A stretch of DNA of 64,000 nucleotides from an uncultured Erysipelotrichaceae bacterium (lineage in GTDB: Bacteria > Bacillota_I > Bacilli_A > RF39 > UBA660): the NCBI GenBank assembly GCA_902785135.1, contig CACZXL010000001.1, positions 66,109 to 130,108 on the forward strand, read 5' to 3'. Each line of letters begins with the position of its first letter. The stretch's first letter is position 1. Below, in pieces: positions 8,469 through 61,032 of the stretch. The notes beneath the pieces were generated by a model, which saw only the letters and a list, made by a program, of their open reading frames with translations, made no database searches and was not told the origin of the DNA. A program made the translations under genes and the position numbers.

Positions 8469-8819
8469 ATGAAGTGTACTAATTGTGATTTTGATTTAAA
8501 ACAAGACGCTATTTATTGTCCAAATTGTGGATTTAAAGTTGAAAAAGCAAAAAAGACTACTAAAAAAACAGAAAAAGTAGAGGAAAAAAATGAAGTAGTA
8601 GTTGTTAATGAACAAACTGATACAACTGGATCAAGTGTAGGTTGGGGATTTTTAGGATTCTTTCAACCAATTGCGGGATTAGTTTTATTTCTAGCTATGA
8701 AAGATAAACCACATATTGCTAAAGGTGCTGGAATAGGTGCATTAATTAGAGTTATAGTTACAGCAGTTTTATGGTTATTTTTGATTTGGGTTTCATTTTA
8801 TTCAGTTGCATTATATTAA
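8469..8819 (+). CDS. zinc-ribbon membrane protein, tandem paralogue 1
   Basis: This 116-aa protein has an N-terminal zinc ribbon (CTNC...CPNC, residues 3-20), a charged Lys/Glu linker, and a hydrophobic C-terminal half with two predicted membrane segments around a conserved FLGFFQPIAGLVLF stretch. It pairs with the following gene, which has the same plan. Its own extended -10 promoter (TG at 8441, TATAAT 8444-8449) sits right after the rpoC terminator. The function is unknown; the family is usually annotated as zinc-ribbon domain-containing protein. Confidence 0.75.
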   Translation: MKCTNCDFDLKQDAIYCPNCGFKVEKAKKTTKKTEKVEEKNEVVVVNEQTDTTGSSVGWGFLGFFQPIAGLVLFLAMKDKPHIAKGAGIGALIRVIVTAVLWLFLIWVSFYSVALY

Positions 8820-8828
8820 GGTGATTTT

Positions 8829-9167
8829 ATGAGATGTAATTATTGTGATTATAAAGTGAATGAAGATACTATAATTTGTCCAAATTGTGGAGAAGATGTT
8901 CATACTACTAAAAAGAACGTTATTAAAGAGAATAAGTTAAAAGAAGAAAAGGAAAACCCAAAAATTCATATAGATGGAGATTATTCTGTTTTATTTGGTT
9001 TACTAGGTTTCTTTATTCCTCTAGCAGGGTTAGTATTATTTTTAGTTTGGATTAATACTAAACCAAAAGATGCTAAAGCCGCTGGACTTGGAGCATTAAT
9101 AAGAGTAATCTTATATGTAGTATTAGCAATCGCTTTTGTATTTTTACAAGCTATAGTAAATGGATAA
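8829..9167 (+). CDS. zinc-ribbon membrane protein, tandem paralogue 2
   Basis: This 112-aa paralogue of the preceding gene shares the Cys4 ribbon (CNYC...CPNC), the charged linker, and a C-terminal hydrophobic region (GLLGFFIPLAGLVLFL, then a KDAKAAGLGALIRVIL segment closely matching its neighbour). It starts 9 nt after the previous stop behind AAGGTGA, so the two are co-transcribed and look like a local duplication. The product is probably anchored in the membrane with the zinc ribbon in the cytoplasm. No function can be assigned. Confidence 0.75.
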   Translation: MRCNYCDYKVNEDTIICPNCGEDVHTTKKNVIKENKLKEEKENPKIHIDGDYSVLFGLLGFFIPLAGLVLFLVWINTKPKDAKAAGLGALIRVILYVVLAIAFVFLQAIVNG

Positions 9168-24713: not shown

Positions 24714-25094
24714 GGGGCTGTAATTGGCTTCGACAGGAATATAGGGTATTTAGCTGCAAGTCGGGTGTCCACGTGAGAGACAAAAAGCAATAAATGCTAA
24801 AAATATTAAAAACGTATTTGCAGGACTATTCAGAAGTACTAGTGCTGCTTTAGCCTAATTATAAAGGTAAATACACTTTCTATTTATTATTTTCTACGTA
24901 ATTTATAGAAGGTTCGATTTTAGTAGAATATATTATTACTAATGTCTATAGGTAATAATGAATTTTATAGACTTACTAAGTATTTAGGTTGTTAATTACT
25001 TTTGTACTTAGGACATATTCTTAATTAACTAAACTTGTAGATGTTACTTATTACGTATTTTTGGACAGGGGTTCAACTCCCCTCAGCTCCACCA
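24714..25094 (+). ncRNA. ssrA: tmRNA
   Basis: The 5' end GGGGCTG pairs with CAGCTCC near the 3' end; the T-arm-like GGGGTTCAACTCCCC, the discriminator A and an encoded CCA (25092-25094) complete the tRNA-like domain. The tag frame runs from a GCA at about 24787 to a TAA after GCC and ends S-A-A-L-A. If GCA is the resume codon the tag is 23 residues; if the later GCT is used it is 20. Both are longer than the 10-15 residues of E. coli and Bacillus. It lies downstream of smpB as in other Bacillota. Confidence 0.95.
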
Positions 25095-33510: not shown

Positions 33511-33745
33511 AACACATATTTGTGTAGAGGTCGCGGTTAAAAAGAGTATAATTCTGGATAACTTGAATTAGAAGAAGGAATTAAAAAGGGTTAACTGCCG
33601 AAGGGTGTATTAGTTCAAGATTATACCCCCTGGGTGTATAGATAATATCTATATAACTGTCATCGAAAGATGGGGAGCTACAAAATATATTTATAATGTA
33701 CGAAATAGCTCTCCCTTGAATAATATTTAGAAGGAGGGCTTTTAT
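33511..33745 (+). promoter_or_regulatory. lysine riboswitch (L-box) with a likely translational switch
   Basis: The leader has the L-box landmarks in order: AGAGGTCGCG (527-536), an AAGAGTATAA loop (541-550), AAAAAGGGTTAACTGCCGAAG (around 583-603), CCCCTGGG (627-634), then AACTGTCATCG and GGGGAGCTACAAAA (672-685). P1 can pair TGTAG (523-527) with CTACA (678-682). The same GGGGAGCTA segment can pair with TAGCTCTCCC (706-715). That second arm is itself complementary, with one mismatch, to the ribosome-binding site AAGGAGGG (731-738). No T-tract follows, so control is probably at translation. (Three-digit positions are within 33 kb.). Confidence 0.9.
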
Positions 33746-48192: not shown

Positions 48193-48313
48193 ATCTTATA
48201 AAGAGAGGCGGAGTGACCGACACTATGAAACCTCACCAACCGATTAAATTCGGTGGTAAAGTCGGATCTATAAGATAACTAATAAACACAAAGGTTATCT
48301 TTGTGTTTTTTTT
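48193..48313 (+). promoter_or_regulatory. SAM-I (S-box) riboswitch, compact, with terminator
   Basis: P1 is a perfect 8-bp pairing (ATCTTATA 193-200 with TATAAGAT 269-276). AAGAGAGGCGGAG and TATGAAACC form P2 with a kink-turn, closed by GTG/CAC in place of the usual GGG/CCC. P3 pairs ACCAaCCGA with TCGGTGGT. Loop CCGAC (217-221) can form the pseudoknot with GTCGG (261-265). No P4 hairpin is present between the pseudoknot and P1. The platform is clear: terminator AACACAAAG (285-293) with CTTTGTGTT (299-307) plus T7, and antiterminator AGATAAC (273-279, overlapping P1) with GTTATCT (294-300). High SAM would stop transcription. (Three-digit positions are within 48 kb.). Confidence 0.83.
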
Positions 48314-52285: not shown

Positions 52286-52404
52286 AATTGCTCTCTTTCC
52301 CCCTGGGCCCTAGGTGGTGTCTTAAAAGTCCTTATTTTATAAGGATTTCTTTAATTTTAGGTACCATTCTACATACCAGCAAGATAGTATTTTTTGAAGA
52401 GAGC
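52286..52404. repeat. left boundary element of the restriction island
   Basis: Within the 520-nt gene-free gap (52046-52565) this unusually GC-rich stretch begins with AATTGCTCTCTT (286-297) and CCCCCTG (299-305), has the palindrome CCTTATTTTATAAGG (330-344), and ends with GAAGAGAGC (396-404). The 12-mer occurs inverted at 61021-61032. The palindrome and GAAGAGAGC recur in direct orientation at 60954 and 61020 with the same 66-nt offset. The 5' and 3' ends also pair with each other. Only the candidate small RNA and the hsdR promoter (TGATATAAT, 52523-52531) are otherwise visible in the gap. Confidence 0.7.
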
Positions 52405-52565
52405 ATACAAATCGTTCACGTCAGTTTACTTTTGCCTCTAAAATTACATTATCATATCAATTTGAAATAACAAAATCATTTTATTTTTTTTGTTTAATTT
52501 GCTAAGAAAATTATTAATGTTATGATATAATATTTATAGGAAATAACTAGGTAGGTGTTTAAGAT

Positions 52566-55500
52566 ATGTCTAAATTTGATGAAAATTCTAGAGTTAAAAT
52601 TCCAGGGATTGTTCATGCTACTAGATTGGGATATGACTATATTTCTTTAAAAGATAATAATCTAATAATTGATCATGAAACAAATATATTTAAAAACATA
52701 TTTTTTGAAAGTTTAAAAAATATTAATAAAGATGTCAATGATAATGATCTTGAAAAATTACTAAATGAGTTAAAAATTCAATTAGATAATGAAGATTTAG
52801 GTAAAAGATTTTATAATACATTGTTATATGGATACAATGGAATTAAATTAATAGATTTTAATGATGTTAATAATAACACATTTAATGTAGTTACAGAATT
52901 GCCATATGAGAATGGTGAAGATAATTTTAGACCGGATATTATTATGCTTATAAATGGTATGCCTTTAGGGTTTATAGAAGTTAAAAAACCAAATAATAGA
53001 GAAGGAATACTAGCTGAAAGAAATAGAATAAATACAAGATTTAAAAACAGAAAGTTTAGAAGATTTGTAAATATAACTCAAATATTAGTATTTTCAAATA
53101 ATCAAGAATATAATGATGACTCTGTTGTACCAATTGAAGGAGCTTTCTATGGAACTCCTAGTTATAATAGTGTTTTCTTTAATTGCTTTAGAGAAGAAGA
53201 CGGTAGTATTTTAGATAATATTTTAGAAAAAGATGAGGATAAAGAAAACTTTATTTTAAAAGATACAAACTATGTATCTATAAAAGGAACACCAGAGTAT
53301 TCTACTAATTTAAATTCTAAAACTCCAACAAATAGAATTTTAACTTCATTATTTCACAAAAGTAGAATATTAAATTTTATTAAATATGGAATTGCATATG
53401 TAGAAAAAACAAATAAAGATGGAATAGTTACTATTCAAAAACAAATAATGAGATATCAACAGTTTTTTGCTACAAAAAGTATTGAGTCGAATTTAGAAGA
53501 AGGACTTAAAAAAGGAATTATTTGGCATACACAAGGTTCAGGTAAAACAGCACTTGCATATTATAATGTAAAATATTTAACTGATTATTATCAAAAGAAA
53601 AATAAAATAGCTAAATTTTATTTTATTGTTGATAGATTAGATTTATTAAAACAAGCATGCAATGAATTTATGGCTAGAGGATTAACAGCAACAAAAGTTA
53701 ATTCTAGAGAAGAATTTGCTCAAAGTATTAAAGAAGTAGGTTCAGTAGGTAAAACTGGTGAGTATACAATTAACGTAGTTAATATTCAAAAGTTTAGTGA
53801 TGAATCCTTTACTAAAGAATCTGATTATAATGTTGATGTTCAAAGAATTTATTTCTTAGATGAAGCTCATAGATCATATAAACCAAGCGGTTCATTTCTT
53901 GCTAATATGATGAATTCAGATACTACCGCTATTAAGATTGCCTTAACCGGAACACCAATTGTTAGTGACGCATTTAACAGTAGAGATATATTTGGTAAAT
54001 ATATTCACACTTATTATTATAATAAATCCATTGAAGATGGATACACTTTAAAACTAATTAGGGAAGGTATTGAAACGTCTTATAGAACGAAATTAAATGA
54101 AACAATTGAAGATATTAAAGAAAAATATGGTGATATCAAAGATAGCGATATTTTTGATAGACCTGAATATTCAAAAGCACTTACAGAATACATTGTAAAT
54201 GATTTTAAAAAGTTTAGAGTTTTATTTAATGATGACTCTGTCGGAGCAATGATTGTTTGTGATTCATCAATTCAAGCAAGAAATATTTTTAAAGATTTAA
54301 AAGATTATGACTTATCAAATGCTTTAATTCTTTATGATGAAGATGATAAAGCAACAAGGGAAAAAGAAATTGATGACTTTAAAAAAGGTAAGATAGATAT
54401 ATTAGTTGTTTATAATATGTTGCTTACTGGATTTGATGCTCCAAGATTAAAAAAGCTTTATTTAGGCAGAGTTATTAGGGCGCATAATCTATTACAAACA
54501 CTAACTAGAGTAAATAGACCATACAAGGAATTTAGATATGGATATGTAGTAGATTTTGCTGATATTAAAGATGAATTTGATCATACAAATAAAGTATATT
54601 TTGAAGAATTACAAAAAGAATTAGGTTCTGAATTTGATAATTATAAAAGTGTGTTTTTATCACCAGAAGAAATTGAAAATGCTATTGATGATATACAAAA
54701 TAAATTATTTGTTTATGATACAGACAATTTAGAAAACTTTACTTCTCAAGTAAATGAATTAGAAAAAAGAGAATTATTTAGTTTAAAGAAAATAATGGAG
54801 AAGTATAAAGAATTGTTTAATGTAATAAGAACATTTAATTATGAAGGTCAATACAAGAAGATATCTGAAACGCTTCCAATAGATAGAATATCTAAAATGA
54901 TAAAAGAAGTAGATAGAAGAATAGATATTTTAAATTTAACTGATTCTGAAAATATGGAAAGTTCTAATATATTAAATATTGCTTTTCAAGATATAGAATT
55001 TAATTTTAAAAAGATATCTGAGGAAGAATTAACAGTAGCTGATTCGTACAAGAAAAAATTGGACGAAGCTAGAAATGAATTTATGCTAAACATTGATAAG
55101 GACGATTACAGATATATTCAACTTTATAATAAATTTAAAAGTTTATTTATAAGTAGAAACCTAGAAGATATAACTGCGGAAGAAATGAAAGACAATATGA
55201 ATGATTTAGATAAACTAATTAATGATGTTCACAAGTTGAATGTAATGAATAATGGATATTTAACTAAATACTTAGGCGATGAAAAATATGTTAAGATTCA
55301 TAAGAGAGTTTTAGATAAAATTCACGAGTTCAATGAAATAAAATTAAATAGAATTTTACTAGGAATTAAAGACAACATAGATAACATGTTATTAAAAAAT
55401 TATTCAGTTATCGAAAATGAAGAATTCTTTAAAAATTCTGTTACTCCAAAAGTAATTATAAGCTTTAAAGAAAATGAACAAACAGTTATTGTTGACGAAA

Positions 55501-55568
55501 TAACATTTTTTACTGACATAATAGTTGAACAATATTTGATAGAGAGGAGTATGGGATTAGATGACTAA
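52566..55568 (+). CDS. hsdR: type I restriction enzyme, R (motor/endonuclease) subunit
   Basis: The 1000-aa HsdR has a PD-(D/E)xK nuclease site (Asp124, Glu138-V-Lys140), then superfamily 2 helicase motifs: Walker A GSGKT (324-328), DEAH (432-435), and TGTP, with motif VI-like QTLTRVNRPY. It translocates DNA and cleaves at a distance when sites are unmethylated. First gene of hsdRMS, overlapping hsdM by 8 nt. The promoter is an extended -10 at 52523-52531. Confidence 0.95.
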   Translation: MSKFDENSRVKIPGIVHATRLGYDYISLKDNNLIIDHETNIFKNIFFESLKNINKDVNDNDLEKLLNELKIQLDNEDLGKRFYNTLLYGYNGIKLIDFNDVNNNTFNVVTELPYENGEDNFRPDIIMLINGMPLGFIEVKKPNNREGILAERNRINTRFKNRKFRRFVNITQILVFSNNQEYNDDSVVPIEGAFYGTPSYNSVFFNCFREEDGSILDNILEKDEDKENFILKDTNYVSIKGTPEYSTNLNSKTPTNRILTSLFHKSRILNFIKYGIAYVEKTNKDGIVTIQKQIMRYQQFFATKSIESNLEEGLKKGIIWHTQGSGKTALAYYNVKYLTDYYQKKNKIAKFYFIVDRLDLLKQACNEFMARGLTATKVNSREEFAQSIKEVGSVGKTGEYTINVVNIQKFSDESFTKESDYNVDVQRIYFLDEAHRSYKPSGSFLANMMNSDTTAIKIALTGTPIVSDAFNSRDIFGKYIHTYYYNKSIEDGYTLKLIREGIETSYRTKLNETIEDIKEKYGDIKDSDIFDRPEYSKALTEYIVNDFKKFRVLFNDDSVGAMIVCDSSIQARNIFKDLKDYDLSNALILYDEDDKATREKEIDDFKKGKIDILVVYNMLLTGFDAPRLKKLYLGRVIRAHNLLQTLTRVNRPYKEFRYGYVVDFADIKDEFDHTNKVYFEELQKELGSEFDNYKSVFLSPEEIENAIDDIQNKLFVYDTDNLENFTSQVNELEKRELFSLKKIMEKYKELFNVIRTFNYEGQYKKISETLPIDRISKMIKEVDRRIDILNLTDSENMESSNILNIAFQDIEFNFKKISEEELTVADSYKKKLDEARNEFMLNIDKDDYRYIQLYNKFKSLFISRNLEDITAEEMKDNMNDLDKLINDVHKLNVMNNGYLTKYLGDEKYVKIHKRVLDKIHEFNEIKLNRILLGIKDNIDNMLLKNYSVIENEEFFKNSVTPKVIISFKENEQTVIVDEITFFTDIIVEQYLIERSMGLDD

Positions 55569-57159
55569 CGAAGTACAATTAATTAATAAAACAGAAAAGA
55601 TGATCGATGAAATAAAAAGTGTTTGTGCTAATTATGGATTAAGTGGTGCGAGTAGTGAATATAAAATCATCACAGAAATCTTTCTTTATAAGTATTTAAA
55701 TGACAAATTTTTATGTGAAATAAAAAGAATATCAGACGATATAAAAGAAAATGCAACTATGAAAGAAGTAGAACAATATTTAAATAATATTTCTGCTGAA
55801 GAATATTCATTGCTAGTAATGCAAAAAAATCCAAATGTTGCAAAGATTAGAAAAGATTATTTAATAAGTTATTTATTTAATAATCAAAACAGTACGACAC
55901 CAGAATTTTATGAATTATTTGATAATGCCCTTGAAGGTATATCTAATGACAATGTTGGAATTTTTTCTGTTAAAACACGAAGTAAAGATACAATTAAATT
56001 GTTTGAACCATTATCACAGTATATTCCTGAATCAAATAGAAAAAATGCTTTTTTTAGAGCCATTATTTCAAAACTTGTAGAGTTTAGTTTTGAAGAAGCT
56101 TTTGATGAAAAATATGATTTTTTTTCAACCATATTTGAATATCTAATAAAAGATTATAATAAAGATTTTGGTAAATATGCAGAATATTATACACCAAATT
56201 CGATTGCTAGAATAATAGCAAAAATAATGGTTCCAGATAAAGCACAAAATGTAACAATATATGATCCGGCTGCAGGTTCTGGTACTTTAATTCTTGCGCT
56301 TGCACACCAATTAAGATTAAATTTAATTCTAAATAATTTAGTACATTCATTAGGCAATGTAATTTATGGGGATACATTATTAAATCCATCACATTTAAAT
56401 GAACAAAAAAATGAATTAAAAAAATTTGATTATATAGTTTCAAATCCGCCATTTAAAATGGATTTTAGTGAAACAAGAGATCAACTTGCAGATGATAAAT
56501 TTAGAGATAGATTTTTTGCTGGAGTTCCGAATATACCTAAAAAAGATAAAGATAGTATGGCAATTTATTTGTTATTTATCCAGCATATTTTATTTTCTTT
56601 AAAAGAAAATGGAAAAACAGCAATAGTTGTTCCAACAGGTTTTTTAACAGCTAAAGCAGGAATAGAATATGATATAAGAAAACACATTATAGATAATGGA
56701 TGGTTAAGAGGAATCGTTTCGATGCCTTCAAATATTTTTGCTAATACCAACACTAGTGTATCTGTAATGTTTATTGATAAATCTGTAAAAAATAATTGTG
56801 CAATGTTAATAGATGCTTCTTCGCTAGGCGAAAAAATAAAGGATGAAAAAGGAAATCAAAGAACAATTTTACCTAAAAAATGTTCTGATAAAATAGTTGA
56901 TTATTTTAATAATAATATAGAAGAAGATGGTTTTTCAGTAATAGTTGACTACAATAAAATTGAGAGTAGAACTTATAAATTTTCCGCTGGTCAATATTTT
57001 AATATTAATATAGAATATGATGAATTATCTACAGAAGATTTTAATAATATGCTAGATAATGATATAATGAAAATTAATGAAATTATGCAAGAAAATGACA
57101 AATTAAATAAGCAATTATTATCTTGTTTAAAGGAATTACAAAATGAAAACAAAAATTAA
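55561..57159 (+). CDS. hsdM: type I restriction enzyme, M (methyltransferase) subunit
   Basis: The 532-aa N6-adenine methyltransferase has the SAM motif DPAAGSG (235-241) and catalytic NPPF (295-298), with an N-terminal helical HsdM domain. It modifies host sites in complex with HsdS. Overlaps hsdR by 8 nt and hsdS by 17 nt, so the three are tightly coupled. Confidence 0.95.
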   Translation: MTNEVQLINKTEKMIDEIKSVCANYGLSGASSEYKIITEIFLYKYLNDKFLCEIKRISDDIKENATMKEVEQYLNNISAEEYSLLVMQKNPNVAKIRKDYLISYLFNNQNSTTPEFYELFDNALEGISNDNVGIFSVKTRSKDTIKLFEPLSQYIPESNRKNAFFRAIISKLVEFSFEEAFDEKYDFFSTIFEYLIKDYNKDFGKYAEYYTPNSIARIIAKIMVPDKAQNVTIYDPAAGSGTLILALAHQLRLNLILNNLVHSLGNVIYGDTLLNPSHLNEQKNELKKFDYIVSNPPFKMDFSETRDQLADDKFRDRFFAGVPNIPKKDKDSMAIYLLFIQHILFSLKENGKTAIVVPTGFLTAKAGIEYDIRKHIIDNGWLRGIVSMPSNIFANTNTSVSVMFIDKSVKNNCAMLIDASSLGEKIKDEKGNQRTILPKKCSDKIVDYFNNNIEEDGFSVIVDYNKIESRTYKFSAGQYFNINIEYDELSTEDFNNMLDNDIMKINEIMQENDKLNKQLLSCLKELQNENKN

Positions 57160-58390
57160 AGTTAATCAAGTAGCTTTTTTAAATAATGATTCATATTCTA
57201 AAAGTAATTTACCAAATGAGATAGAGTACATAGATATTAAAAGCATGACTGAAAATATTTTAACTAATATACAATATTTAAAAAAAGATGTTGATAATAT
57301 ACCGTCACGAGCTAGAAGAAAAATAAAAGATAAAACAATAATATATTCCTCTGTAAGACCAAGAAACAACCATTACGGCTTTTTTGAAAATCCTCACAGT
57401 AATATGGTGGTGTCAACAGGATATATTACAATAGATGCAAATGAAGATATTGTTGATCCGTATTACTTATACTGTATTTTAACTCTTCCAAAAAACTTAG
57501 AATATGTATATAAGCTTGCAGATTCTGCAGTATCATCATATCCATCAATAACTCCTGAAGATTTAGGTAATATGGAAATTGAGATAGAAACAGATTTAAA
57601 TGAACAAAAAAGAATATCAAATTTATTTTATACAATTGATAAAATAATATTTAATAATAATAAAATTAATAAAAAAAATTATAATATTTGCTCAAATTTA
57701 TATAATTATTTATTTAATAATTTCAGTAATAAAAATTTAAACTTAGAGTATAATGAGAATTTAAAAAAATATATCCCAAAAGGTTGGAAATCAGTATTAA
57801 TAAATGAGTTGATACTTGAATTGAAACTTGGTGATTGGGGAAGTGATGAAATTAAAGATGATTTGATAGAAACATCTTGCATTAGAGGCGCAGATTTTGA
57901 GAATATTATACAAAAAAACAATGAATTACCTTTAAGATTTTTAAAAGAACAAAGTTTTAATGAAAAAAGACTATTAAGTGGTGATTTATTAATAGAAATT
58001 AGTGGTGGTAGTCCAACACAATCTACAGGAAGAATTTGCTATATTAATTCATATACATTAAAAAGATTTAATAATAATTTGGTTTCATCAAATTTTTGTA
58101 AGGCAATATCATTAAACAATAAAGAAAGATATATATGGTTTTATTACTTGTGGAAATCAATGTATGATTCTGGAGTATTCTTTAATTTTGAAGGAAAAAC
58201 AAGTGGATTAAAAAATTTATTATTTGATGATGTTATTAATAATATTTATGTAGCTTTACCACCAAAAGAACTTATGGATTATTTTTTTAGAAAAACTAAT
58301 AAGATTTTTGATAATATACAAAATAATATAAATATGAATTTATATTTAAAAAAAATAAAAGAAAAATACTATCATATTTTTCTAAATTAA
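57143..58390 (+). CDS. hsdS: type I restriction enzyme, S (specificity) subunit
   Basis: The 415-aa HsdS has two target-recognition domains, each followed by a conserved helix: the first ends with TPEDLGNMEIEIETDLNEQK plus a long helix, the second with LPPKELMDYFFRK. Each domain recognises half of a bipartite DNA site. It is single copy here, with no inverted partial copies or recombinase, so no sign of phase variation. Confidence 0.9.
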   Translation: MKTKIKVNQVAFLNNDSYSKSNLPNEIEYIDIKSMTENILTNIQYLKKDVDNIPSRARRKIKDKTIIYSSVRPRNNHYGFFENPHSNMVVSTGYITIDANEDIVDPYYLYCILTLPKNLEYVYKLADSAVSSYPSITPEDLGNMEIEIETDLNEQKRISNLFYTIDKIIFNNNKINKKNYNICSNLYNYLFNNFSNKNLNLEYNENLKKYIPKGWKSVLINELILELKLGDWGSDEIKDDLIETSCIRGADFENIIQKNNELPLRFLKEQSFNEKRLLSGDLLIEISGGSPTQSTGRICYINSYTLKRFNNNLVSSNFCKAISLNNKERYIWFYYLWKSMYDSGVFFNFEGKTSGLKNLLFDDVINNIYVALPPKELMDYFFRKTNKIFDNIQNNINMNLYLKKIKEKYYHIFLN

Positions 58391-58406
58391 GTAAGAGGTA
58401 AATTTA

Positions 58407-59084
58407 ATGAATAATATAGGTGCAATTTATATATTAAAAAATCCTTCTTTTCCGGATTATATAAAGATAGGATATGCTGATAATGTTTATTCAAGATTAA
58501 AAACTTTAAATGATAAATCAGCAGTACCATTTGCTTTTAGATTATATGCTTATTATAAAGTTAATCATCGTTTAGAAGATAAAACAGTACATGAAATTAT
58601 AGATAAGTTAAATCCTTCTTTAAGAGCTAAAGATAATATAGATGGTAAAGAAAGAAAAAGAGAATTCTTTGAAATGTCTGCTGAAGATGCATATGATATA
58701 TTACGTTGTATAGCTAAAATAAATGGATTAGAAGATAATTTAGTATTAGTAGAGCCAACAGCTAAAGAAATGGAAGATGAAGATGAAGCTACAACTAAAA
58801 GAAAATCTACTCAATTACCTAAAATGGATTGGTTAATAAATCAAGGTATTATTAATATAGGTGATGAAGTATATTTAATTAATCATCCAGAAGAAGTAGC
58901 TACAGTAGTAGATGCTAAAAATGTTGAATATAAAGGTGAGAAGATGTCTTTTAATCAATACGGATGTGAAATAACTGGATGGAAAGCTATACAAATATAT
59001 GCTTTTATGAAAAAAGTTGGTGGAAATAAAACACTAGCTAAATTAAGAGAAGAAAAGATGGAAGAATTAGGAATGTTGCAGTAA
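58407..59084 (+). CDS. GIY-YIG (T5orf172-type) nuclease with RAMA-like domain
   Basis: The 225-aa protein starts with a GIY-YIG nuclease fold of the T5orf172 type (AIYILKN, then YIKIGYADNVYSRLKTLN, residues 6-34). An acidic linker (about 115-135) leads to a C-terminal segment (about 137-220: LINQGIINIGDEVYLI, ATVVDAKNVEYKGEKMSF, KTLAKLREEK) that resembles the RAMA domain, thought to bind modified DNA or occur in restriction proteins. It lies 16 nt after hsdS and is probably in the operon. It could be a modification-linked nuclease. Confidence 0.75.
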   Translation: MNNIGAIYILKNPSFPDYIKIGYADNVYSRLKTLNDKSAVPFAFRLYAYYKVNHRLEDKTVHEIIDKLNPSLRAKDNIDGKERKREFFEMSAEDAYDILRCIAKINGLEDNLVLVEPTAKEMEDEDEATTKRKSTQLPKMDWLINQGIINIGDEVYLINHPEEVATVVDAKNVEYKGEKMSFNQYGCEITGWKAIQIYAFMKKVGGNKTLAKLREEKMEELGMLQ

Positions 59085-59254
59085 TATAACACACATGCAG
59101 ATTATTTGCGATTGAATATATGAAGTAAAAAATATAATGGAGTATATTAAAACTAAAATAAATATGATATAATTTTTGTAGTAAGAAGAGGCGCTAGTAC
59201 AGGCTTTGATAAGAAGTTTTTGTAGTGGCGTTTTTTTAGTAAGGAAGTGTTTAT
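59085..59254 (+). promoter_or_regulatory. promoter and possible attenuator for the DUF6119 gene
   Basis: Extended -10 TGATATAAT (59165-59173). The transcript of about 75 nt before the gene contains an imperfect hairpin GCGCTA (191-196)/TAGTGGC (223-229) followed by seven T, which looks like a terminator inside the leader. The next gene may thus be expressed only when this is bypassed. (Three-digit positions are within 59 kb.). Confidence 0.5.
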
Positions 59255-60808
59255 ATGTCAGAAAAAAGAAAAAAATCCAATAAAATCTCTATATATTTGA
59301 TTAAAGAAGATATTGATTATAATCAAATATTGAAAGAATTTGCATATAATAATATATTAAGAGAAGACGAAAATTCAGTAACATATTTCTCCCCTACAAG
59401 AAGTAATAAACCCGATTGGTTGAAATCATATTTTAACTATTTGGAAGATATTAATATTAGTAATTCTCATGCACAAGTAATATCTATTCATAAAATAGTA
59501 ATAGATGGTAAAGAACGAATTTTTGCAATTCCGTTTGGAAGTGGTAAGTATCTGCTAAATGATGATGTTATAGAAGAACAATTTGGTATTAAAGTATTGC
59601 TTAATAGTGTTCCAATTGACGGATTTAGACAATTAGTTGTTGCTAATTATGGTGGAGATCATAGAATAAAAAATGAGCAAACACCTAAAAAAACTAATAT
59701 TAGTGAGTTTGGTTTTGATATTTTTAATGACTTTGTTAGGAGAGCTACAGCTAAAAGCGAAGAAGAGCTATTTAATAATAATACAATTACAGGTGGAGAT
59801 TTATTAAGTGTTTCAGTTCCAGTTACAATAGAAAATGTGGATAATTTTTTGGTTTCTTGCTATGATAGATATAAAAGTGATAAATATAAAGAAAATTTTA
59901 GTTGGCTTGATAATATAAGAGAAGTTAAAGAAAAAAATATAAAACAAAAATTAAATGAACAATTAGTGAAAACTATAAATAATAAAGAATTTGATAAGGT
60001 ATGGGCTGCAGTTCCTGAAATTGTTGAATGGGAAAAGATACTTGATTTCAGATTCAATACATCAAAAGAGGGGTTTGATGATATTGAAATCCAAAATATT
60101 ATAGAAATATATAAAGATCAAACTGTACCTAGTGTAGATTCGTTAAAAGGCAGGAAAATATATGCAATGTCTGTAAATGATAATGATATTCTAAATGAAT
60201 GGAGTATTTTTAATTGCTTAATTGCTGAAATAGAATATGATAACAGTGCTTATTGTTTGAATTTTGGAAAATGGTATAAAGTTGATAGATCTTTTGTTGA
60301 TACAACTAACAAATATTATGAATCTATTAGATTGTCTGATGTACAATTTCCAGATAGCAATAATGAAAGAGAAGATGAATATAATCAAAAATTATGCAAT
60401 TTTCTTCAAAATTCTGTATTAATGGACAAAAAAACTGTTAGAACAATAGGAATGGGAAAAAGTTCAATTGAAGTTTGTGATGTTTTAACTAAAGAAAAAC
60501 AATTAATTCATGTCAAAAAAAATGGAGGTTCAAGTTATTTAAGCCATCTATTTAGTCAAGCAGCTGTATCTGGTGAAATGTTACTAGATAGAGAATTTAG
60601 AGAAGAAACTAATAAGAAATTGCAAGCTCAAATTTTTGATGACGGCTTTATGGCTAATAAATATACAGTTATACTAGCTATTATTACAAATACTGATTGT
60701 GCTAGACCAAAAATTCCGTTCTTTAGTAAGGTTTCAATTCAATATGCAATCGATGGTTTAAAGAGAAAAGGATATAATGTTGAAATAAGAAATATTTATA
60801 ATAAGTAA
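59255..60808 (+). CDS. DUF6119/TIGR04141-type sporadically distributed protein
   Basis: The 517-aa protein matches my memory of the TIGR04141 (DUF6119) family, which is scattered among bacteria and often in defence islands. Supporting segments are HVKKNGG, SSYLSHLFSQAAVSGEMLLD and a C-terminal TVILAIITN. A possible PD-(D/E)xK-like core is Glu406, Asp409, then HVK with Lys421. Nuclease activity is not shown. It has its own promoter after the GIY-YIG gene and lies inside the repeat-bounded island. Confidence 0.7.
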   Translation: MSEKRKKSNKISIYLIKEDIDYNQILKEFAYNNILREDENSVTYFSPTRSNKPDWLKSYFNYLEDINISNSHAQVISIHKIVIDGKERIFAIPFGSGKYLLNDDVIEEQFGIKVLLNSVPIDGFRQLVVANYGGDHRIKNEQTPKKTNISEFGFDIFNDFVRRATAKSEEELFNNNTITGGDLLSVSVPVTIENVDNFLVSCYDRYKSDKYKENFSWLDNIREVKEKNIKQKLNEQLVKTINNKEFDKVWAAVPEIVEWEKILDFRFNTSKEGFDDIEIQNIIEIYKDQTVPSVDSLKGRKIYAMSVNDNDILNEWSIFNCLIAEIEYDNSAYCLNFGKWYKVDRSFVDTTNKYYESIRLSDVQFPDSNNEREDEYNQKLCNFLQNSVLMDKKTVRTIGMGKSSIEVCDVLTKEKQLIHVKKNGGSSYLSHLFSQAAVSGEMLLDREFREETNKKLQAQIFDDGFMANKYTVILAIITNTDCARPKIPFFSKVSIQYAIDGLKRKGYNVEIRNIYNK

Positions 60809-60813
60809 ATTAT

Positions 60814-60853
60814 AAAAAACATATATAGCCACGAATCTATATATGTTTTTTGT
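60814..60853 (+). terminator. terminator of the DUF6119 gene
   Basis: A perfect 15-bp stem AAAAAACATATATAG (60814-60828) with CTATATATGTTTTTT (60837-60851). Symmetric, so it may work in both directions. Confidence 0.92.
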
Positions 60854-60861
60854 TGTATTTT

Positions 60862-60930
60862 TACATGCATTTTTAGATGACGTCTACATGCATTTTTAGA
60901 TACTTTTTGTGGTATCTAAAAAATAATGCA
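60862..60930. repeat. direct and inverted repeats next to the island end
   Basis: TACATGCATTTTTAGAT occurs at 60862-60878 and 60885-60901 (23-nt period). The second copy also forms an inverted repeat with GTATCTAAAAAATAATGCA (60912-60930). Confidence 0.75.
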
Positions 60931-60934
60931 AAAA

Positions 60935-60991
60935 TGTACTACAGTGTACAAACCCTTATTTTATAAGGAAAAATGTGTACTGTAGTGTACA
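60935..60991. repeat. nested palindromes around CCTTATTTTATAAGG
   Basis: TGTACTACAGTGTACA (60935-60950) and TGTACTGTAGTGTACA (60976-60991) flank the palindrome at 60954-60968. The whole can fold as one long hairpin. There is no gene here. Confidence 0.75.
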
Positions 60992-61013
60992 AAAGATTGG
61001 CTAAAATATTCTG

Positions 61014-61032
61014 CCCCCTGAAGAGAGCAATT
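61014..61032. repeat. right boundary repeat of the restriction island
   Basis: CCCCCTG (61014-61020) then AAGAGAGCAATT (61021-61032), the inverted counterpart of the 12-mer at 52286-52297. The two ends enclose 8.7 kb that contain only hsdRMS, the GIY-YIG and the DUF6119 genes plus repeats. Confidence 0.7.

Follow-up and report, generated by a model that had tools for sequence, protein, structure and literature searches.

CIMEs are bounded by attL and attR sites, lack integration and transfer genes, and have been described as decay products of ICEs and IMEs (PMC5704250). In Dehalococcoides, many islands without a recombinase occupy a single target, ssrA, where they have kept their boundary repeats and are arranged in tandem (PMC3146451). 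CALIN and integron cassettes are cargo units situated between recombination sites, on which the integrase acts in trans (PMC11389934). The island described here, at positions 52286–61032 of the window (the whole 64-kb stretch of DNA analyzed), comprises 8.7 kb of restriction genes in the genome of a gut member of the Bacilli, with recombination sites at both edges. It resembles a CIME in possessing attL and attR with a common core and no integrase or transfer genes, and CIMEs can also adjoin IMEs or share sites with them; it differs in belonging to a family that spans several genera and whose members carry the same long ends and defense cargo, all without an integrase. With the Dehalococcoides islands it shares the retained boundary repeats and the missing integration module, whereas those islands are characterized by a serine (CcrB-like) recombinase, an ssrA target, and dehalogenase cargo. 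The likeness to CALIN and integron cassettes lies in recombination-site-bounded cargo units served by an integrase in trans, but the present family consists of multigene islands of 8–12 kb whose ends resemble attL/attR and not attC sites. In its workings the island thus resembles CIMEs and the Dehalococcoides islands, the difference being that homologous long ends, defense cargo, and the absence of an integrase recur together in several genera. With a probability of roughly three in four, we interpret the locus as a non-autonomous, CIME-like integrative defense island that is mobile by means of an integrase supplied in trans.

The targets of tyrosine recombinases usually consist of two inverted binding arms around an overlap of 6–8 bp. 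The original prediction placed the 12-mer AATTGCTCTCTT at 52286 with an inverted copy at 61021, and exactly these two matches occur in the window (52286 on the plus strand, 61021 on the minus strand); they are also the only two copies in the whole 1.09-Mb assembly, against zero control matches. CCCCCTG does lie beside each 12-mer, at 52299 and 61014, with one correction: its two copies run in the same direction, unlike those of AATTGCTCTCTT, which are inverted. Runs of CCCCC on the plus strand are found at only three places in the 64 kb, two of which are the island ends. When joined, the flanks read AATTGCTCTCTT-T-CCCCCTG-AAGAGAGCAATT, a palindrome around an asymmetric 7-bp core that is now split by the island. 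Because inverted arms surround a 7-bp core, as in tyrosine recombinase targets, the 12-mers are the two halves of one target; CCCCCTG is the duplicated 7-bp core, and the island boundaries have the attL/attR geometry of a tyrosine recombinase. On the plus strand, the left half of the split palindrome (B arm, AATTGCTCTCTT) occupies 52286–52297 and the attL core 52299–52305, a direct repeat of the attR core at 61014–61020, which is followed by the right half (B' arm, AAGAGAGCAATT) at 61021–61032. Intact palindromes, GCTCTCTTCCCCCTGAAGAGAGC, occur in relatives.

Directly inside the core lie a left end of ~137 bp and a right end of ~165 bp, both conserved across genera. The left end (LE, annotated at 52306–52426, plus strand) contains the palindrome CCTTATTTTATAAGG (52330–52344, plus strand), the putative integrase arm-type site TTTTAGGTACC (52355–52365, plus strand), and an internal GAAGAGAGC (52396–52404, plus strand). 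The left ends of G008, G225, G324, G212, and G188 have doubled repeats resembling TTTAGGTAC at a similar place. The right end (RE, 60849–61013, plus strand; model R2) carries two direct TACATGCATTTTTAGAT repeats recognized by alignment (60862–60901, plus strand), which are likewise candidate arm-type sites, an inverted GTATCTAAAAA beside them (60912–60922), and a second palindrome CCTTATTTTATAAGG (60954–60968, plus strand). By eye, the candidate arm-type sites in both ends of the island resemble the TTTAGGTAC repeats. The equal offset claimed for the two ends is exact: CCTTATTTTATAAGG and GAAGAGAGC start at 52330 and 52396 in the left end and at 60954 and 61020 in the right, 66 nt apart in each case. 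Of the GC enrichment proposed for both ends, only that of the left end held (0.37, in the top ~5% of 120-nt windows; 0.53 over the first 40 nt), while the right end, over its final 120 nt, ranks near the 79th percentile. An RNA role for the left end was considered and rejected: it folds better than shuffled sequences (z −3.15), yet in an alignment of four left ends the 6-bp stem of the palindrome is the sole structure supported, and it shows no covariation, so a role as a DNA att site is preferred. An Rfam search of the island ends matched no family.

The five genes between the ends, all on the plus strand, correspond to the cargo originally proposed, and none encodes a recombinase, as had also been claimed, or a relaxase; the island thus has neither of the two genes that an IME possesses. 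They are hsdR (52566–55568; type I restriction subunit of 1000 aa; HSDR_N 1e-23, SWI2_SNF2 2e-40; PADLOC REase_I), hsdM (55561–57159; type I methyltransferase of 532 aa; N6_Mtase 1e-52; PADLOC MTase_I 5e-194), hsdS (57143–58390; specificity subunit of 415 aa; PADLOC Specificity_I 6e-25), a gene for a T5orf172 GIY-YIG protein (58407–59084; 225 aa; PADLOC defense candidate PDC-S57), and a gene for a DUF6119/TIGR04141 protein (59255–60808; 517 aa). As judged from sequence, the open, full-length frames of hsdR, hsdM, and hsdS assign the first three to a type I restriction-modification (RM) system. Elsewhere, the window contains a SAM riboswitch (48193–48276), a lysine riboswitch (33517–33688), and tmRNA (24714–25094), all of them ordinary.

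Homologous ends enclose other cargo in relatives. With the left-end model R1, matches were obtained in G300, the window genome (G000), G361, G002, and G377, with E-values of 1e-35 to 1e-23. In the congener G002, both ends surround Mrr, a D12 methyltransferase, a DUF6996/6997/7226 protein, ParB-like proteins, and an SNF2 helicase; in G300, which belongs to another genus, they surround a D12 methyltransferase, an AlwI-type endonuclease, GmrSD, and DUF6119, whose gene adjoins the right end. G361 combines a homologous left end with the same core at the right and a diverged right end, around a type I RM system, T5orf172, ThsB-TIR, and other genes. Only the left end is present in G377, before a C5 methyltransferase, where a contig end cuts the element, and only the right end in G238, 89% identical to that of the island in one comparison and 91% over 146 bp in another. 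The island's left end is 85% identical in G300 and 67–68% in G002 and G361, and the right end 79% in G002 and 76% in G300. Between genomes, identity inside the core amounts to 67–90% for left ends and 68–89% for right ends (65–90%, ungapped, for the final 60 nt of right ends); beyond the core, flank identity is 21–39% (ungapped), the similarity stopping at the target arms. The distance between core and palindrome is 33 nt in all but one of the five left ends; in the four right ends it is always 58 nt. Since the spacing from the palindrome to AGAGAGC, 65–66 nt, is kept in every end examined (five left, four right), the 66-nt offset is not due to chance and represents a conserved family feature. 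None of the members with homologous ends yielded a recombinase.

Homologous ends around unrelated defense cargo in other genera indicate that the ends persist and spread while the cargo is exchanged. Such exchange also fits the proteins shared with G361: the T5orf172 proteins of the two islands are 89% identical, whereas HsdR and HsdM are only ~23–24% identical. The varied cargo in G002 and G300 (both ends), G361, and G377 supports the proposal that the island moved as a unit, and such movement in the past is well supported. It is barely credible, by comparison, that unrelated intergenic repeats, such as terminators, flank a resident RM locus by chance. The motif CCTTATTTTATAAGG is widespread and often lies 3' of tRNA genes in a terminator-like context; being family-wide (43 of 98 genomes), it is by itself no marker of the island. 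However, the genome has one copy of the boundary pair, which is therefore no common repeat, paired ends hold different cargo in other genomes, and their identity breaks off at the target arms. Nor is the island fixed in relatives: among the 11 congeners searched, a true left-end homolog occurs only in G002, with other cargo. No clean empty site was seen at the orthologous locus in these congeners, of which only one has the flanking tetR, in a different gene context.

Several observations concern CCTTATTTTATAAGG in its own right. It lies directly 3' of tRNA genes and near the ends of SEC-C motif genes (L029, L037, L058, L075, L084, L088, L092–L094, L098, and others), sometimes followed by doubled arm-like repeats, and is likely a common attachment core or terminator in the bacterial family. 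At L032, L033, L049, L052, L074, L082, L089, L090, and L097, several of them near contig ends, it is enclosed in a structured element with GGCACC/GGTGCC-type stems, a second small hairpin (TTTGCACTTGCAAA-type), and an outer AGGAT/ATCCT stem, the stems apparently covarying.

The core pattern CCCCCTGAAGAGAG has 94 matches, spread over 73 of the 386 genomes of the bacterial family (0 for the reversed control pattern), and GCTCTCTT(0-2 nt)CCCCCTG in 9 of the 386; targets were found at several loci, and enrichment of the palindrome near CCCCCTG sites is weak. In genome contigs, the matches listed for GCTCTCTTN{0,2}CCCCCTG are mostly chance occurrences across all phyla, and among them only L172, L262 (G002), L267, and L272 (G007) are informative. 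Of 11 matches to CCCCCTGAAGAGAGC in the viral contigs scanned, none has the same context, giving no sign of phage carriage. Many copies of the CCCCCTG core lie at the 3' end of a small RNA without annotation, in several genomes just after recG. This ~105-nt RNA (L105, L111, L112, L116, L119–L121, L123, L124, L126, L132, L134, and L309 at 8750–8860) displays promoter-like boxes, two hairpins, a nearly invariant AACCRAAACCCCCTGAAGAGAG, and a terminator, with compensatory changes in 8 of 21 predicted pairs; it had no Rfam match in the loci scanned. The RNA, which bears the core at its 3' end, is a common integration target.

Intact arm-core-arm palindromes are present in G008, G324, G225, and G212. 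As each is followed by element-like sequence, with an AAGGGT block and with doubled TAGGTAC as arm repeats, they were rejected as empty sites, and left ends in which the palindrome is restored are the better interpretation; at L267, an intact palindrome stands without element-like ends. The existence of intact palindromes identifies the arms as target sequence. This bears on a highly improbable alternative, in which the island is a transposon that ends in short inverted repeats (GCTCTCTTC/GAAGAGAGC) and depends for its movement on a DDE transposase provided in trans. Inverted repeats of 9–12 bases at the block edges, and flanks that differ between genomes, are compatible with such a transposon, but the adjoining CCCCCTG is direct rather than inverted, neither internal end is an inverted copy of the other, as terminal inverted repeats would be, and elements with the same core carry a tyrosine integrase.

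Autonomous elements of this kind in the same bacterial family combine the core with a tyrosine integrase, a MobV-type relaxase, and defense cargo. The 13.2-kb element of G186 encodes a 384-aa tyrosine integrase ~90 bp from the core, together with an AAA protein, a type III RM system, Thoeris ThsA/ThsB, and a MobV-type relaxase, the latter scoring under the NCBIfam cut-off and over the Pfam cut-off for Mob_Pre. In G163 and G019, an integrase 140–190 bp from the core accompanies a Mob_Pre relaxase; in G312, integrase and relaxase both lie inside an element with defense cargo. Several same-core integrases contain an Arm-DNA-bind_4 domain. These four IMEs resemble the island in their CCCCCTG core and GAAGAGAG arm and, in G186 and G312, in their defense cargo, but they differ in possessing their own integrase and relaxase and in their ends: models R1 and R2 revealed no homologous ends in the integrase elements examined, with only the core and target arms in common. 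Same-core tyrosine-integrase elements of the same genus and family are a plausible integrase supplier for the island. An integrase is likewise missing from other units between consecutive cores, in G374, G092, G090, and G244, which carry genes for an EcoRI-type methyltransferase, GmrSD/HNH, AbiE, and DUF1016. Very small units of one or two genes lie between consecutive copies of CCCCCTGAAGAGAG at L160 3547–4875 (G244) and L159 1082–3002 (G090), one gene being a DUF1016/YhcG nuclease. A separate, tRNA-linked element with a tyrosine integrase, at L060 5489–11100 (G007) and L059 (G006), encodes small excisionase-like, SSB-like, and HTH proteins (by eye) and has a structured hairpin, followed by a Sau3AI/MutH-like endonuclease and a C5 methyltransferase.

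The Phage_integrase proteins of the window genome are limited to XerD and one XerC-like protein, which scores just below its cut-off; no phage-type integrase was found, and one serine recombinase is present. As this assembly is 93.6% complete, a helper integrase could be missing from it, and the island may now be stranded. That XerD and the XerC-like protein are the sole tyrosine recombinases found in the genome would suit an element that exploits the host Xer recombinases for integration (IMEX). Such an origin is nonetheless improbable: the target GCTCTCTT-CCCCCTG-AAGAGAGC, which we take by eye to be unlike dif-type arms, occurs at several loci, and same-core elements encode a dedicated integrase next to the core, several with an arm-binding domain. 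Unlikely, though to be weighed more seriously, is a dead remnant, that is, a former integrase element whose integrase and transfer genes were deleted, which is now immobile and whose conserved ends reflect descent. CIMEs are usually described as decayed ICEs or IMEs (PMC5704250), the window genome lacks a phage-type integrase, and short or split integrase frames occur at other sites, in G009, G092, and G324. In terms of origin by deletion, the island shares its core with IMEs, and no IME with homologous ends was found. Against a remnant, both ends have been conserved across genera over 130–165 bp and at a fixed spacing, always with clean flanks and around differing cargo, and no integrase remnant, such as independent decay would sometimes leave, was seen in the members with homologous ends.

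Under the preferred reading of a trans-mobilized defense island, 52299–61020 would be an integrated non-autonomous mobile element without its own integrase or relaxase. Its circular form would carry an attP composed of the right end, CCCCCTG, and the left end, and a tyrosine integrase would recombine the circle with a palindromic chromosomal target, GCTCTCTT[T/C]CCCCCTGAAGAGAGC, which would leave a copy of CCCCCTG at either edge and half of the palindrome on each side. The most likely source of this integrase in trans would be the integrase/MobV elements with the same core in the bacterial family, and transfer would probably depend on mobilization by these or by another element. The predicted junctions are AATTGCTCTCTTTCCCCCTG|AAGAGAGCAATT for the empty site and ATTCTGCCCCCTG|GGCCCTAGG for the circular attP. 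For the island itself, we infer present mobility, excision, a circular form, transfer, and the identity of the acting integrase. More tentatively, and at somewhat less than even odds, the members may constitute a dedicated family of defense-only "hitcher" islands, whose long ends are kept by selection for recognition by same-core IME integrases and through which defense systems are swapped between gut Bacilli genera without mobility genes.

These observations bear on how chromosomal defense islands without a recombinase move. Base-exact boundaries, the same ends with different systems across genera, and named candidate helpers make trans-mobilization directly testable. Furthermore, the conserved ends provide a sequence handle for finding defense systems in reduced, uncultured Bacilli.
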